A stretch of 64,000 nt of DNA, from contig NZ_CP007511.1 in the NCBI RefSeq assembly GCF_000818015.1, positions 2,738,501 to 2,802,500 on the forward strand, in the 5' to 3' direction. Made by a program: the position numbers and the translations under genes. This DNA comes from Stutzerimonas balearica DSM 6083 (GTDB taxonomy: Bacteria > Pseudomonadota > Gammaproteobacteria > Pseudomonadales > Pseudomonadaceae). Below the pieces are notes generated by a model, which was not told where the DNA came from, did not search any database, and saw nothing but the letters and a program-made list of their open reading frames with translations. Positions 21,947 through 46,477 of this stretch are shown here, piece after piece. Each line of letters begins with the position of its first letter. Within the stretch, counting starts at the first letter, position 1.

Positions 21947-22357
21947 TCAGGCCAGGCGGGCCTGCTCATCGGCGAGGAAGTCCTCCTCCAGCAGAGCATC
22001 GCTCGCCGCGCTGGAACCCAGCGGCTGCGCGGCGACTGCATTGCGCTTCGCACGCGCCTTGCCGAACTGATGGCCGAGGGCCTTGTCGAGCTTTTCCATG
22101 GCGCCGTCGATGGCCAGTTCCAGCGACTCGGCCTTGTGGGTCACCGAAACCGGCTGCAGCCCCTTGGGCCGCGCCTCCATCTGGCAGCGCTTGTCCTGGG
22201 CGCCAGCCTTGTCTCCGTTCTCATCACTCAGATGCACGACGATCCGCGTCAGATCGTCGTCGTAGCGCTCCAGTCTGCTGGCGACACTGGCACTCACCCA
22301 GTCTGCAAGCCGGGCACTGCCGTCGATATGGTTATCGCTGTGAACCTGGATTTGCAT
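21947..22357 (-). CDS. HPF/RaiA-family ribosome-associated protein, paralogue 1
   Basis: This 136-residue protein has an N-terminal S30EA/HPF domain (about residues 1-98: MQIQVHSDNHIDGSARLADWV, then RIVVHLSDENGDKAGAQDKRCQMEARP and SVTHKAESLELAIDGAMEKL) and a 38-residue tail rich in A, S and E. The domain binds the 30S decoding site and silences ribosomes in stationary phase. The tail is not the C-terminal dimerisation domain of long HPF. A second close paralogue lies at 44203-44514, sharing DENG-K-G-QDKRCQ-EAR and VTHKAESL-LAIDGA-EK. Neither is linked to rpoN, where the canonical hpf usually lies. Confidence 0.85.
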   Translation of the reverse strand: MQIQVHSDNHIDGSARLADWVSASVASRLERYDDDLTRIVVHLSDENGDKAGAQDKRCQMEARPKGLQPVSVTHKAESLELAIDGAMEKLDKALGHQFGKARAKRNAVAAQPLGSSAASDALLEEDFLADEQARLA

Positions 22358-39520: not shown

Positions 39521-40570
39521 ATGCCCACACTCTTCGACCCGATCAAGATCGGCGACCTGGAACTGTCCAACCGCATCATCATGGCGCCGCTGACGCGCTG
39601 CCGTGCCGAACCGGGACGTGTGCCGGGCGACCTGATGGTGGAGTACTACAGCCAGCGCGCGGATGCCGGGCTGATCATCAGTGAAGCCACATCGGTCACG
39701 CCCATGGGCGTCGGCTACCCGGACACCCCCGGCATCTGGTCGGCCGAGCAGGTTCAGGGCTGGAAGAAGATCACCGAAGCCGTACATGCCAAGGGCGGCA
39801 AGATCGTCCTGCAGCTATGGCACGTCGGGCGCATCTCCGACCCGATCTACCTGGACGGCCAGCTGCCGGTCGCGCCGAGCGCCATCAAGCCTGCCGGGCA
39901 TGTCAGCCTGGTCCGTCCGATGAAGGACTACGAGACCCCGCGCGCGCTGGAGACAGCCGAGATCCCGGGGATCATCGAGGCCTACCGCAAGGGCGCGGAA
40001 AATGCCAAGGAAGCCGGTTTCGACGGCGTGGAGATCCATGGCGCCAATGGCTACCTGCTCGACCAGTTCCTGCAGGACAGCACCAACCAGCGCACCGACC
40101 AGTACGGTGGCTCGTTGGAAAACCGCGCACGCCTGATGCTGGAGGTGACCGACGCCGCCATCTCGGTCTGGGGCGCCGGACGCGTCGGCGTACATCTGGC
40201 GCCGCGTGCCGATTCCCACGACATGGGTGATTCCAACCGCGCCGAAACCTTTGGCTACGTTGCCCGCGAACTGGGCAAACGCGGCGTCGCCTTTATCTGC
40301 ACCCGCGAGAAGGCCGGCGAAGACAGCCTAGGCCCGCAGCTCAAGCAACTGTTCGGGGGTGTCTACATCGCCAACGAGCGCTTTACCAAGGAGCAGGCCG
40401 GCACCTGGCTCGCGGAAGGCAAGGCCGACGCCGTGGCCTTTGGTATTCCCTACATCGCCAACCCGGATCTGGTCGAACGCCTGCGCCGGGACGCGCCGCT
40501 CAACGAGCCGCGGCCCGAGCTCTTCTATGCCAAGGGCGCCGAAGGCTATACCGATTACCCGTCGCTCTAG
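39521..40570 (+). CDS. Alkene reductase, Old Yellow Enzyme family (NemA/XenB-like)
   Basis: This 349-residue FMN enzyme folds as a TIM barrel and reduces activated alkenes, nitro compounds or N-ethylmaleimide with NAD(P)H. Seen segments are LFDPIKIGDLELSNRIIMAPLTRCRA, the FMN-binding LQLWHVGRISD, the substrate His/Asn pair in GVEIHGANGYLLDQFLQDSTNQRTDQYGGSLENRAR (about residues 180-215) and AFGIPYIANPDLVERLR. AAGGAG precedes the ATG at 39521. It is probably regulated by the ArsR protein just upstream. A strong terminator follows. The natural substrate is unknown. Confidence 0.93.
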   Translation: MPTLFDPIKIGDLELSNRIIMAPLTRCRAEPGRVPGDLMVEYYSQRADAGLIISEATSVTPMGVGYPDTPGIWSAEQVQGWKKITEAVHAKGGKIVLQLWHVGRISDPIYLDGQLPVAPSAIKPAGHVSLVRPMKDYETPRALETAEIPGIIEAYRKGAENAKEAGFDGVEIHGANGYLLDQFLQDSTNQRTDQYGGSLENRARLMLEVTDAAISVWGAGRVGVHLAPRADSHDMGDSNRAETFGYVARELGKRGVAFICTREKAGEDSLGPQLKQLFGGVYIANERFTKEQAGTWLAEGKADAVAFGIPYIANPDLVERLRRDAPLNEPRPELFYAKGAEGYTDYPSL

Positions 40571-40686: not shown

Positions 40687-41023
40687 AACCGGAGCAGACG
40701 CGTGGATGAGGCTGCGCCGTCATCCACCCTACGCGCCCTGCAAAGCACCGCTTCCGTAGGGTGGAAAACCGCCAGCGTTTTCCACGCCGCAGCACCACGC
40801 AAACGCCGCAGCACCAGCACCAGCACCAGCACCGAACCGGAGCAGACGCGTGGATGAGGCTGCGCCGTCATCCACCCTACGCGCCCTGCAAAGCACCGCC
40901 TCCGCCGGATGGAAAACCGCCCAGCGTTCTCCACGCCGCCAGCGCAGCATGCAAACCCGGCGGCGAAAGCGCCGCGTCGGAGCAGATTCGTGGACGGGGG
41001 CTGGGCCGCCCTCCCCTACGCCT
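40687..41023. repeat. 148-bp tandem repeat carrying paired palindromes, in a 445-bp gene-free stretch
   Basis: Unit 1 begins at about 40687 (AACCGGAGCAGACGCG) and unit 2 at 40835, an exact 148-bp step; a degenerate third start (CGGAGCAGATTCGTGGA) is at about 40978. Each unit contains two inverted repeats: GTGGATGA...TCATCCAC and TGGAAAAC...GTTTTCCA (unit 1: 40761-40785). Between units is a CAGCAC hexanucleotide run (about 40809-40832). The repeat lies between the alkene-reductase terminator and fghA. No protein is supported here despite open frames. Its origin is unknown; a REP-like palindromic element is likely. Confidence 0.75.
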
Positions 41024-43172: not shown

Positions 43173-44066
43173 ATGAGCCGCTGGGAAGGTCTGGACGAGT
43201 TCGTTGCCGTTGCCGAACAGGGCAGCTTCATGGCCGCCGCGCAGAAGCTGCGCGTGTCGTCGTCGCATGTCAGCCGCCAGGTCGCACGCCTGGAGGAACG
43301 CCTGCAGACGCGCCTGCTATATCGCACCACCCGTCGCGTTTCACTGACCGATGCCGGTCATCACTTCTTCGCCCGTTGCCAGCGCCTGATCGAGGAACGC
43401 GACGATGCCTTCAGCGCCGTCAGCGATCAGAACAGCGTGCCCAGCGGCCTGCTGCGCATGACCGCTGCCGTCGCCTATGGAGAGCGGTTCATCGTGCCAC
43501 TGGTGAACGACTTCATGGCGCGTCATCCGCAGCTGCGGGTGGAGATCGAGCTGTCCAATCGCACGCTCGACCTGGTCCAGGAAGGCTTCGATCTCGCGAT
43601 CCGCCTAGGTCGGCTGGGCGAATCGCGGCTGGTCGCAACACGAATCGCACCTCGCGTCATGTATCTGTGTGCCGCACCGGCGTATCTGGAACGTTACGGC
43701 CGCCCGCACACGCTCTCCGAGCTGGCACGGCACAACTGCCTGATCGGCACCAGCGACACCTGGATGCTGCAGGTCGACGGCCGCGAGCAGCATTTCAAGC
43801 CTTCGGGCAACTGGCGCTGCAACAGTGGCCATGCCGTGCTCGATGCAGCGCTGCGCGGCTTCGGCATCTGCCAACTGCCTGATTACTACGTTCAGGAACC
43901 GCTACGCCGAGGCGAACTGGTTGCGCTGCTTTCGGCGCACCAGCCGCCGGACACCGCCGTCTGGGCCGTTTATCCGCAGCGCCGGCTGCTGTCCGCGAAG
44001 GTCGGTGGCCTGATCGAGGCACTGAAAGCGGGACTGGCCGCCGCGCCGGAATACGCCCGTAGATGA
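43173..44066 (+). CDS. LysR-family regulator, probable activator of adhC-fghA
   Basis: This 297-residue regulator has the LysR helix-turn-helix at residues 1-60 (LDEFVAVAEQGSFMAAAQKLRVSSSHVSRQVARLEERLQTRLLYRTTRRVSLTDAG) and a periplasmic-binding-like effector domain (about 90-290). It lies 109 bp from adhC on the opposite strand, the usual place for a LysR regulator of that gene. In P. aeruginosa GfnR, at the equivalent position, controls formaldehyde/glutathione genes; orthology is inferred from position. TATAAT at 43096-43101 may be a -10 element in the shared region. Confidence 0.9.
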   Translation: MSRWEGLDEFVAVAEQGSFMAAAQKLRVSSSHVSRQVARLEERLQTRLLYRTTRRVSLTDAGHHFFARCQRLIEERDDAFSAVSDQNSVPSGLLRMTAAVAYGERFIVPLVNDFMARHPQLRVEIELSNRTLDLVQEGFDLAIRLGRLGESRLVATRIAPRVMYLCAAPAYLERYGRPHTLSELARHNCLIGTSDTWMLQVDGREQHFKPSGNWRCNSGHAVLDAALRGFGICQLPDYYVQEPLRRGELVALLSAHQPPDTAVWAVYPQRRLLSAKVGGLIEALKAGLAAAPEYARR

Positions 44067-44202
44067 GCGCCGTTTCGCCTGTTCGGTCGTCTGTCCGGCG
44101 TCCGGACGGGCGTTGGAACCCTGCCCTGCTGGCCCCGTCGTAACTGGAAAGCCAGAGCGTCGGCGTCTGGTTTTTGCCAAGCCATGCCATCAGGAGAATT
44201 CC

Positions 44203-44514
44203 ATGCTCATCCAGGTAAACAGCAATCACAGCATCGAAATGTCCCAGGGCCTGGAGGACCGCGTCCGCGCCACCCTGGAAGACGAGCTGGAGCGATTCGA
44301 CGAATACCTGACGCGTCTGGAGGTTCACCTCAACGACGAGAACGGCAGCAAGAGCGGCCCGCAGGACAAGCGCTGCCAGATCGAGGCCCGTCTCAAGCAC
44401 CACGAACCGCTATCGGTAACGCACAAGGCCGAGTCGCTGGACCTGGCCATCGACGGCGCAGCGGAGAAGATGCTGCACGCGCTCGACCATCTCACCGGCA
44501 AGCTCAGCCGCTGA
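44203..44514 (+). CDS. HPF/RaiA-family ribosome hibernation factor, paralogue 2
   Basis: This 103-residue protein is a single S30EA/HPF domain: MLIQVNSNHSIEMSQGLEDRVRATLEDELERF, then LEVHLNDENGSKSGPQDKRCQIEARLKHHEPL and SVTHKAESLDLAIDGAAEKMLHALDHL. It should sit in the mRNA channel of the 30S subunit and keep ribosomes idle. CAGGAG precedes the ATG at 44203; the open frame upstream is leader. It resembles the protein at 21947-22357 closely but lacks its tail. The baeRF gene follows after 37 bp on the same strand, so the two are probably one transcript. Confidence 0.88.
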   Translation: MLIQVNSNHSIEMSQGLEDRVRATLEDELERFDEYLTRLEVHLNDENGSKSGPQDKRCQIEARLKHHEPLSVTHKAESLDLAIDGAAEKMLHALDHLTGKLSR

Positions 44515-44551
44515 CCTCACCCTTTCACCGGCCCCTGTTGCGAGGTACCCC

Positions 44552-45715
44552 ATGCCAAGCGATCTGAACCGAGACACCTTGAAGGAGCTGCTGGCGGTGC
44601 GCCAGCGTCCATGTCTGTCGCTGTATCAGCCGACCCACAGGAGTTTTCCCGAGCGAGAGCAGGACCCCATTCGTTTCAAACACTTGGTACGTCAGTTGGA
44701 GGACGCCCTTAAACAGCAGCACTGCGACCAGCCCGAGACGCTGCTCGCGCCTTTCCGGGCGCTGATCGACGACGCCGATTTCTGGAATAACAGCCGCGAC
44801 GGCCTGGCCATCTTCGCCGCGCCGGGCTATTTCAAGATCTTTCGCCCGCAGCGTCGGGTCGCCGAACTGGCCGTGGCGAACGAGCGCATGCACGTCAAGC
44901 CACTACTGCGTATCGCCCAGTCCGCCGACCGTTACCAGATTCTGGCGCTGACGATGGATTCGGTACGGCTCTACGAGGGCAACCGGGACGGCATCGATCA
45001 GGTTCGACTGGCCGACGGCGTCCCCGCCACGCTCGAGCAGGCGCTGGGCCGCGAGTTGACCGACAAGGGCCAGAGCGGTTTCCCGCAGGGCTACAGCCGC
45101 GCCGGTGAGCGGGGCGACCCGATGCAGGTGGAGGCCGGTGGTGCCGGGCGTCAAGCCGAGATGGACCGTGACCGTGAGCGTTTCTTCCGCGAAGTGGACC
45201 GGGCCATCCTCGAACATCACTCCAAGCGTTCTGGCCTGCCGCTGATACTGGCGGCGCTGCCGGATCACCAGGCGCATTTCCGCAAGCTCAGCCATAACCC
45301 GCACCTGCTCGCCGAGGGCATCGACAACGATCCGTCCCTGCTTAGCCAGAACGAGCTGCGCGAGAAGAGCTGGTTGGTGATGCAGCCGCGCTACATCAAG
45401 CGCCTGGAAGGCTTCATCGATCGCTTCGGGGAATCGCTCGGTCAGGGACTGGCCAGCGAGGCCATCGAGGAAATCGGTCGCGCGACCCGTGAGGGGCGCG
45501 TCGCCACGCTGCTGGTCGAGGCGGACCGCCGCATTCCGGGCCAGGTCGACAAGGATGAGGCCAAGGCCCTGCCTGCCGAAGAGGCCGACGCCTCGACACC
45601 CGATCTGCTCGACGAACTGACCGTCTGGACGCTGGAACAGGGCGGTGAAGTCATCGCGGTGCCGGCCGAGCGCATACCGACGCAAAGCGGAGCGGCGGCG
45701 CTGTATCGGTTCTAG
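44552..45715 (+). CDS. Bacterial archaeo-eukaryotic release factor-like protein (baeRF/Balon-type)
   Basis: This 387-residue soluble protein resembles the bacterial eRF1/Pelota-like (baeRF) superfamily. Its N-terminus, RDTLKELLAVRQRPCLSLYQPTHRSFPEREQDPIRFKHLVRQLEDAL, and the following ADFWNNSRDGLAIFAAPGYFKIFRPQRRVAELAVANERMHVKPLLRIAQSADRYQILALTMDSVRLYEG are characteristic, as is the C-terminal AIEEIGRATREGRVATLLVEADRR...GGEVIAVPAERIP, the eRF1 domain 3-like part. No GGQ motif is seen, so peptide release is unlikely. Psychrobacter Balon, a member of this superfamily, binds the ribosomal A site during hibernation next to RaiA. GAGG precedes the ATG. The HPF gene 37 bp upstream strengthens a hibernation role, which remains inference. 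Confidence 0.8.
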   Translation: MPSDLNRDTLKELLAVRQRPCLSLYQPTHRSFPEREQDPIRFKHLVRQLEDALKQQHCDQPETLLAPFRALIDDADFWNNSRDGLAIFAAPGYFKIFRPQRRVAELAVANERMHVKPLLRIAQSADRYQILALTMDSVRLYEGNRDGIDQVRLADGVPATLEQALGRELTDKGQSGFPQGYSRAGERGDPMQVEAGGAGRQAEMDRDRERFFREVDRAILEHHSKRSGLPLILAALPDHQAHFRKLSHNPHLLAEGIDNDPSLLSQNELREKSWLVMQPRYIKRLEGFIDRFGESLGQGLASEAIEEIGRATREGRVATLLVEADRRIPGQVDKDEAKALPAEEADASTPDLLDELTVWTLEQGGEVIAVPAERIPTQSGAAALYRF

Positions 45716-45726
45716 GTCAGAACCCA

Positions 45727-45760
45727 GCCCCGCAGACCGGCTCAGGCCGGGCTGCGGGGC
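45727..45760. terminator. Hairpin between convergent baeRF and ispD genes
   Basis: GCCCCGCAG (45727-45735) pairs with CTGCGGGGC (45752-45760), with an inner CCGG/CCGG stem. No long T-tract follows on either strand. Its place between convergent stops suggests bidirectional termination. Confidence 0.5.
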
Positions 45761-45772
45761 ACGCCTGTCACC

Positions 45773-46477
45773 TCAGCGTGGACCCCACTGCAACTGCAAC
45801 CACTGGAGGTCATCCGGACGGGTGACCTTGATGTTGTCCGCGCGCCCTTCCACTACCCGCGGACGATGGCCGAGCCACTCGATCGCCGAGGCCTCGTCCG
45901 TGATTTCCGCACCCGCCTGGGCCGCCCCGGTCAGTGCCTGGCGCAACAAGCCCAGGCGAAACATCTGCGGGGTATAGGCCAGCCAGATCGGGCGGCGGTC
46001 GACCGTCTGCTCGACGCGACCGTCGGCCGCGACGCGCTTGAGCGTGTCCTTCGCCGGAACGGCCAGCAACCCGCCGACCGGATCCTCGCCGAGCTGGTCG
46101 AGTAACCGCTGCAGGTCTTCATCCGCAAGATTGGGGCGTGCCGCATCGTGCACCAATACCCAGTCCCCATCGAGGGCGCCGAGGTCTTTCAGCCGCTCGA
46201 GACCGGCCAGTACCGAGTCGGCACGTTCTCTCCCGCCTGCTGCGCGACTGATCCGCGGGTCAGCCGCGCAGCCCAGCATCGGCCACCAGGGATCGTCCGG
46301 TGCAAGGGCGACCACCACACCTCGAACGCCGGCACGGCCCAGAAAACAGCCAAGGGTATGTTCAAGAATCGTGCGGTCACCGAGCTGCAGGTATTGCTTG
46401 GGGCGGTCAGCAGCCATGCGACTGCCAATGCCGGCAGCAGGAATCACCACCCAGAAAGAGGTCGGTCGGTTGTTCAT
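45773..46477 (-). CDS. ispD: 2-C-methyl-D-erythritol 4-phosphate cytidylyltransferase
   Basis: This 234-residue enzyme makes CDP-ME from MEP and CTP, the third step of the MEP isoprenoid pathway. The nucleotide-binding start is VVIPAAGIGSRMAADRPKQYLQLGDRTILEHTL (residues 9-41), with catalytic arginine and lysine in place. Further segments are VLVHDAARPNL, VDRRPIWLAYTPQMFR and the closing TRPDDL. Its ATG overlaps the ftsB stop by four bases (46474-46477), the usual ftsB-ispD coupling. Confidence 0.96.
   Translation of the reverse strand: MNNRPTSFWVVIPAAGIGSRMAADRPKQYLQLGDRTILEHTLGCFLGRAGVRGVVVALAPDDPWWPMLGCAADPRISRAAGGRERADSVLAGLERLKDLGALDGDWVLVHDAARPNLADEDLQRLLDQLGEDPVGGLLAVPAKDTLKRVAADGRVEQTVDRRPIWLAYTPQMFRLGLLRQALTGAAQAGAEITDEASAIEWLGHRPRVVEGRADNIKVTRPDDLQWLQLQWGPR

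Follow-up and report, generated by a model that had tools for sequence, protein, structure and literature searches.

A divergent HPF gene and a baeRF family 3 gene form a putative ribosome-hibernation operon in Stutzerimonas balearica

A linked pair of genes

We analyzed a window of 64,000 nucleotides (nt) from the genome of Stutzerimonas balearica DSM 6083, which is a single contig of 4.38 Mb (NZ_CP007511.1). Coordinates are positions in the window unless they are given as contig positions. The window contains two adjacent genes on the + strand, one for a protein of the hibernation-promoting factor (HPF) family and one for a bacterial eRF1-like protein of baeRF family 3 (baeRF3), which together are a candidate ribosome-hibernation operon.

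The HPF gene (44203-44514) runs from an ATG at 44203, with AGGAG as a good ribosome-binding site just 5' of it, to a stop codon at 44512-44514, and it encodes 103 amino acids. An alternative in-frame TTG start at 44113 would give a longer form; the nearest relative (locus L095) has the same 103-residue form. After a gap of 37 nt (44515-44551) with GAGG at 44542-44545, the baeRF gene (44552-45715) begins with an ATG at 44552 and ends with a stop codon at 45715, and it encodes 387 amino acids. The initial annotation of this DNA had described two same-strand genes 37 bp apart, and both reading frames are indeed in place. A scan of 43900-45900 for sigma-70 promoters and for terminators gave no match, and no promoter-like or terminator-like site was seen in the gap. 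The nearest named relative at the locus is from Pseudomonas oligotrophica, a member of the Stutzerimonas group (88% for the baeRF protein and 96% for HPF).

The first gene encodes a divergent HPF

The first protein matches the S30AE domain (PF02482; E = 1.1e-10, 42.5 bits versus a cut-off of 23.7), as expected from the family proposed in the initial annotation. This match, at residues 8-101, is the only Pfam match above the cut-off. The protein is not of the long type and is without the C-terminal dimerization domain. It falls below the cut-off of the HPF/YfiA equivalog TIGR00741 (24.7 versus 40.9 bits). The gp25/TssE baseplate profiles also gave weak matches below the threshold (E = 0.012 and 0.027), which are most likely due to chance.

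The genome contains three S30AE genes: the linked one, a canonical one, and one at 21947-22357 on the - strand. Because there are three S30AE genes and just one PF18845 (baeRF3) gene, the term "paralogue" that had been used for the linked HPF is correct. The canonical gene (L001) adjoins a gene that we take to be rpoN. RMF is also present in the genome. The gene at 21947-22357 (S30AE match at contig 2760564-2760836) is about 22 kb from the pair, outside the putative operon and unlinked to baeRF, and encodes 136 amino acids with a C-terminal tail. By alignment and by phylogenetic tree, this protein and the linked HPF belong to one divergent class, with the markers DEN..K, KRC..EAR, and TH.A. 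Within the genus, relatives of the 21947-22357 protein are also present in genomes where the search for baeRF gave no match (G124 and G168).

The solved structures separate the two classes as well. The closest solved relative of both divergent proteins is the "hpf" of Acinetobacter baumannii (7m4z_v; E = 3.8e-18 for the linked HPF and 6.4e-25 for the second paralog), which is reported on the 70S particle (PMC8263017). The canonical HPF of this genome matches 8rd8_D, the chain annotated as S30 protein in the Balon structure from Psychrobacter (E = 9.2e-16), whereas the linked HPF has no match to 8rd8_D at E up to 1. So, the HPF in the Psychrobacter structure is of the canonical class, while the HPF that is linked to baeRF3 here is of the divergent class. 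The initial annotation likened the gene pair to Balon and RaiA. The relatedness of baeRF to Balon and the linkage to HPF bear this out; the likeness does not extend to the linked HPF itself, which differs in class from the Psychrobacter protein.

The second gene encodes a relative of Balon

A profile search of 44552-45715, as the initial annotation proposed, gave a clear match to PF18845 (baeRF_family3; E = 9.8e-46, 156.6 bits, gathering cut-off of 31.5) rather than no match to baeRF or eRF1. The profiles of baeRF families 6, 7, 8, and 11 were above their cut-offs too. The translation contains neither GGQ nor NIKS. The predicted fold is of the three-domain aeRF1 type, and Balon is the closest structure. 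Thus the comparisons with profiles, with the sequences of solved structures, and with model folds all indicate a Balon/baeRF protein without GGQ, which is what had been read by eye.

The N-terminal motif THR-x-x-P-x-x-x-QDPI is common to this protein and to Balon-type sequences from the same order. The "HP motif" of Balon binds the decoding center (PMC10901736). In the alignment, Balon (AOC03_06830 from Psychrobacter urativorans; PDB 8rd8, 8rdv, and 8rdw; NF052287) has HP where our baeRF3 protein has FP; that this aligned HP is the published motif is our assumption. Across 81 aligned sequences, which include the shortened reading frame of locus L120, position 33 is proline in 79, and position 32 is phenylalanine in 51 and histidine in 24. 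In the C-terminal domain, strands are predicted at 329-333 and 338-341; the segment of the Balon-type sequences that aligns with them is, we assume, Balon's beta-hairpin insertion. The mycobacterial homologs of Balon, Msmeg1130 and Rv2629 (8v9j/8v9l and 8v9k), have profiles that our protein matches far below their cut-offs: it scored 14.8 bits against NF052288 (cut-off 480) and 18.8 bits against NF052289 (cut-off 320).

The pair is conserved

To see how common the pair is, we examined 198 genomes of Pseudomonadaceae and judged adjacency by the positions of the matches and from fetched loci. PF18845 was found in 65 genomes and a match to the linked HPF in 117; 56 genomes have both, 9 have baeRF only, 61 have the HPF class only, and 72 have neither. 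The two genes are adjacent in 32 of the 65 genomes with PF18845, namely in 28/30 from the genus Stutzerimonas and in four genomes from three other genera. In one of the other 33 genomes (L087), HPF is on the opposite strand at a distance of about 2 kb. The two sampled Stutzerimonas genomes without baeRF (G124 and G168) have one HPF of the divergent class each. Since these proteins group with the 21947-22357 paralog in the tree, the searches detected neither gene of the pair in these two genomes.

A scan of a genome collection yielded 533 stretches that encode relatives, and we kept the best 80 loci. A divergent-class HPF is present in 57 of these loci, and in 55 it is the direct neighbor of baeRF, at most 128 nt away and with the same orientation. 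HPF comes first in 43 of the 55 and baeRF comes first in 12. The adjacent loci span the Pseudomonadota, Deinococcota, Cyanobacteriota, Chloroflexota, and Nitrospirota. As many of the 80 loci come from closely related organisms, the counts lack independence, and some loci stop near the gene, so that a missing neighbor is uncertain in them. With the pair in 32/65 of the Pseudomonadaceae and 55/80 of the collection loci, the linkage is not due to chance. In one of the adjacent loci (L120:4001-5137, from Polaromonas glacialis), the baeRF gene seems to be broken by a stop codon or frameshift in the assembly, and an HPF-class reading frame follows; we kept it in the locus counts and excluded it from the Balon-type alignment.

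HPF classes were called with domain-trimmed S30AE profiles. No canonical HPF was found beside baeRF3 in these loci, as judged by a canonical-class profile that was made from one sequence. In the genomes of the 25 loci without an adjacent divergent HPF, a search with PF02482 found S30AE genes in all 25, with positions relative to baeRF that are partly resolved.

We also built a tree of 89 HPF sequences (51 linked and 38 from a hand-picked unlinked subset, with identical sequences dropped). On this tree, which has 102 columns and few resolved forks, the linked/unlinked label changes 8 times, and at least 4 of the changes are forced by well-supported branches; shuffled labels give about 29 changes. 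As for Balon itself, genes above the Balon cut-off were present in 8 of 293 genomes from the order, and two profiles detected no HPF reading frame in any of these 8 loci, which are about 4.1 kb long and extend to about 1.5 kb from the gene.

The pair occurs in more than one genomic context

A gene for a LysR-type regulator (43173-44066, + strand, identified by a profile match) lies upstream of the HPF gene. Further upstream is a gene that we take to be a class III alcohol dehydrogenase (adhC), and downstream of baeRF, on the opposite strand, are presumably ispD and ftsB; these three were named from position and a reading of the sequence, not by profile. Searches for the neighbors with tblastn showed that the slot adhC, lysR, [HPF], baeRF, ispD, ftsB is common to the Stutzerimonas loci, P. 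matsuisoli, and P. indica. P. flexibilis has the slot with no match for lysR. P. zanjanensis, P. brassicacearum, and their relatives have the pair with a tailed HPF, and none of four slot neighbors was found there. Because the pair occurs both in the slot and in loci without the slot neighbors, the linkage exists in more than one genomic place.

In P. luteola, P. asuensis, and P. duriflava, the slot contains baeRF without HPF. These P. luteola-type loci (L080, L081, and L082) retain the upstream motif that we describe below, about 256-259 nt before baeRF, so the unit retained its motif while an HPF gene entered or left it. Some Stutzerimonas loci (L036, L074, and L076) have the motif too, and the interval from lysR to baeRF gave no HPF match there; these are natural variants with baeRF alone. 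Another locus, L037, is apparently on the same contig as L074.

A conserved promoter-like motif precedes the pair

Upstream of the HPF gene is a putative promoter of the extracytoplasmic function (ECF) type (44115-44142, + strand), recognized as a consensus match: GGAACCC at 44115-44121 and CGTCGTA at 44136-44142. The motif GGAACCC-N14-CGTCG (contig 2782615-2782640) begins 88 nt before the ATG of HPF. In an alignment of the upstream regions, GGAACCC and CGTCG are conserved and the spacer is free. Of the 35 linked slot loci, 33 have the strict motif in the 200 nt upstream (L056 and L079 are the exceptions), and it precedes baeRF in all five slot loci without HPF that were scanned (L074, L076, and L080-L082). 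It was found in none of the five Pseudomonas loci from the other genomic place (L088-L091 and L101) and in none of 17 linked or nearby loci from other groups. A looser motif was not found before the second HPF gene or the canonical HPF gene of this genome, and it matched just 1 of 1,219 control windows, which came from Stutzerimonas loci and were scanned on one strand. A still looser pattern, within 350 nt upstream of baeRF, matched once each in three loci outside the slot (L087, L117, and L118); we took these for chance.

We collected 26 distinct motif sequences that share both boxes. (L067, whose spacer is one nt longer, is counted in the 33/35 and lies outside this set.) The pattern used to collect them fixed part of the boxes; the signals that were not forced are a C at position 7 (25/26), a C at position 22 (26/26), and the frequency of the motif in the scan of the slot loci relative to the control windows.

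The motif has the form of an ECF promoter. Read as a site for AlgU (sigma-E), it is GAACCC-N16-TCGTA: the spacing and the TC fit, and the last two bases of the -35 box differ. The genome's own algU gene is preceded by GAACTT-N16-TCTAT. The AlgU consensus is GAACTT-N16/17-TCtgA (PMC10651043), and an AlgU site mapped by footprinting in P. stutzeri A1501 reads GAACTC-N16-TCGGA (PMC9141998). PF08281, a profile that may miss further ECF genes, has ten matches in the genome; two of the ten, which we judged to be ECF sigma genes, were tested and are the RpoE/AlgU and SigX equivalogs. We saw no sites that resemble the motif before sigX or oprF. Because the SigX consensus is undefined (PMC7641640), SigX stays a candidate. 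The motif resembles an AlgU promoter, and we regard AlgU as the most likely sigma factor.

Proposed function of the pair

The gene content, the homology of both proteins, the predicted fold, the conserved linkage, and the conserved motif lead us to propose that the pair is probably a two-gene ribosome-hibernation operon whose products act jointly on the 70S ribosome, with control of the AlgU type. Joint action on idle ribosomes had already been suggested in the initial annotation, and the homology to Balon/baeRF, the conserved linkage, and the single conserved upstream motif speak for it. Because the linkage is conserved and one promoter-like motif precedes the first gene, joint expression of the pair is plausible. 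Both genes would be transcribed from 44115-44142 in response to envelope stress or general stress, by RNA polymerase that carries an ECF sigma factor (most likely AlgU). The short HPF-class protein would sit in the channel of the 30S A and P sites and keep out mRNA and tRNA. The baeRF3 protein would fill the A site as Balon does, with its N-terminal domain at the decoding center, its middle domain at the peptidyl-transferase center without causing peptide release, and its C-terminal domain in the position of Pelota/eRF1, where Balon meets EF-Tu. Bound at the same time, the two proteins would hold the 70S ribosome idle and protected, on top of ordinary HPF and RMF.

Several observations weigh against this proposal. 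First, the baeRF3 protein scores 160.2 bits (residues 10-387) against the Balon equivalog NF052287, which is under the curated cut-off of 330, so we consider it a member of the baeRF3/Balon superfamily and not an ortholog of Balon. It is just 21-23% identical to four aligned Balon-type sequences, and where Balon has THREHP it has THRSFP, with phenylalanine in place of the histidine that may be part of the HP motif. Second, none of the 26 motif sequences has a T at the fifth or sixth base of the -35 box (the collecting pattern prescribed the fifth base for this set, and the scan of 35 loci left it free), which departs from the GAACTT of AlgU. Third, the strict pattern GGAACC-N14-16-CGTCG is not enriched across the genome, with 13 matches versus 42 for the reversed control, so the motif is identified by its conservation and not by genome-wide statistics. 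All 13 matches, including the one at this locus, overlap an open frame of at least 150 codons on either strand, and a regulon search over them established no second target. Finally, baeRF lacks an adjacent HPF in 33 of the 65 Pseudomonadaceae genomes that encode it, so the pair is not obligatory.

These unlinked genomes, together with the P. luteola-type slot, where the motif is followed by baeRF without HPF, would fit with genes that are merely adjacent and act separately, with HPF in ordinary hibernation and baeRF3 elsewhere. We think that this is unlikely, as the two genes are repeatedly neighbors, across several phyla, in either order, and in more than one genomic place, which chance would not yield.

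The middle domain invites another explanation. Its loop is GGAGRQ, and baeRF3 might be an active release or rescue factor, with Gln201 at the tip of a catalytic loop that hydrolyzes peptidyl-tRNA on stalled ribosomes, while HPF stores the emptied ribosomes. By our placement, G-[KR]-Q is close to the position of the GGQ of eRF1, and the aligned Balon-type sequences have no glutamine at position 201. Also, Burroughs and Aravind considered it possible that baeRF families with a catalytic glutamine are release factors (PMC6514570). Gln201 was invariant in our first alignment of 11 sequences, yet in the larger set of 81 it is present in just 55, with lysine in 17, alanine in 4, glutamate in 4, and serine in 1, which is from the linked locus L056. 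We therefore demoted this idea to a weak rival, as catalysis is not a conserved feature of the family. Conservation is stronger at position 200 (lysine or arginine in 80/81) and in the helix after the loop residues than at Gln201, the protein has no GGQ, and the loop at 173-197 is modeled with low confidence and varies in length across the family, so an active release factor seems improbable to us. Also improbable is a splitting factor like Dom34/Pelota, which would enter empty or stalled A sites and promote separation of the subunits instead of storage: Balon and the mycobacterial homologs, which score far higher, are found on intact 70S ribosomes and inhibit translation (PMC10901736), and baeRF3 adjoins HPF, a storage factor.

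Relation to known systems

Joint hibernation by a baeRF protein and an HPF is not a new idea. Burroughs and Aravind reported HPF in the neighborhood of several baeRF families and proposed joint translational shutdown (2019, PMC6514570), and Helena-Bueno et al. reported that Balon genes most often adjoin RaiA (2024, PMC10901736). The direct linkage, from which the initial annotation had suggested joint action, had thus been described already. The parts of the 2019 paper that we consulted do not treat the class of the linked HPF or the shared motif, and our searches of the open-licence literature did not find the pairing of HPF classes or the promoter-like motif. The new details are the divergent class of the linked HPF and the conserved GGAACCC-N14-CGTCG motif upstream. 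We presume that baeRF_family3 in Pfam follows the classification of Burroughs and Aravind.

More tentatively, the lineage may have a second hibernation module that is controlled by a stress sigma factor, in which a dedicated divergent HPF and a baeRF3 plug for the A site are a matched pair that was assembled or rearranged repeatedly across phyla, unlike the Balon of Psychrobacter with its canonical-class RaiA. This difference in class makes the question of whether each A-site plug has its own HPF directly testable. As a short putative operon found throughout Stutzerimonas, the pair is well suited for testing whether the two types of factors act jointly. Natural variants are available as well: L074, L076, and L036 have baeRF and the motif without HPF, and in G124 and G168 both genes of the pair went undetected.

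Elsewhere in the window, at 40687-40921, there is a direct repeat of 87 nt in two copies (95% identical, spacing of 148), along with shorter partial copies. This repeat adjoins the end of a gene that finishes at 40570.
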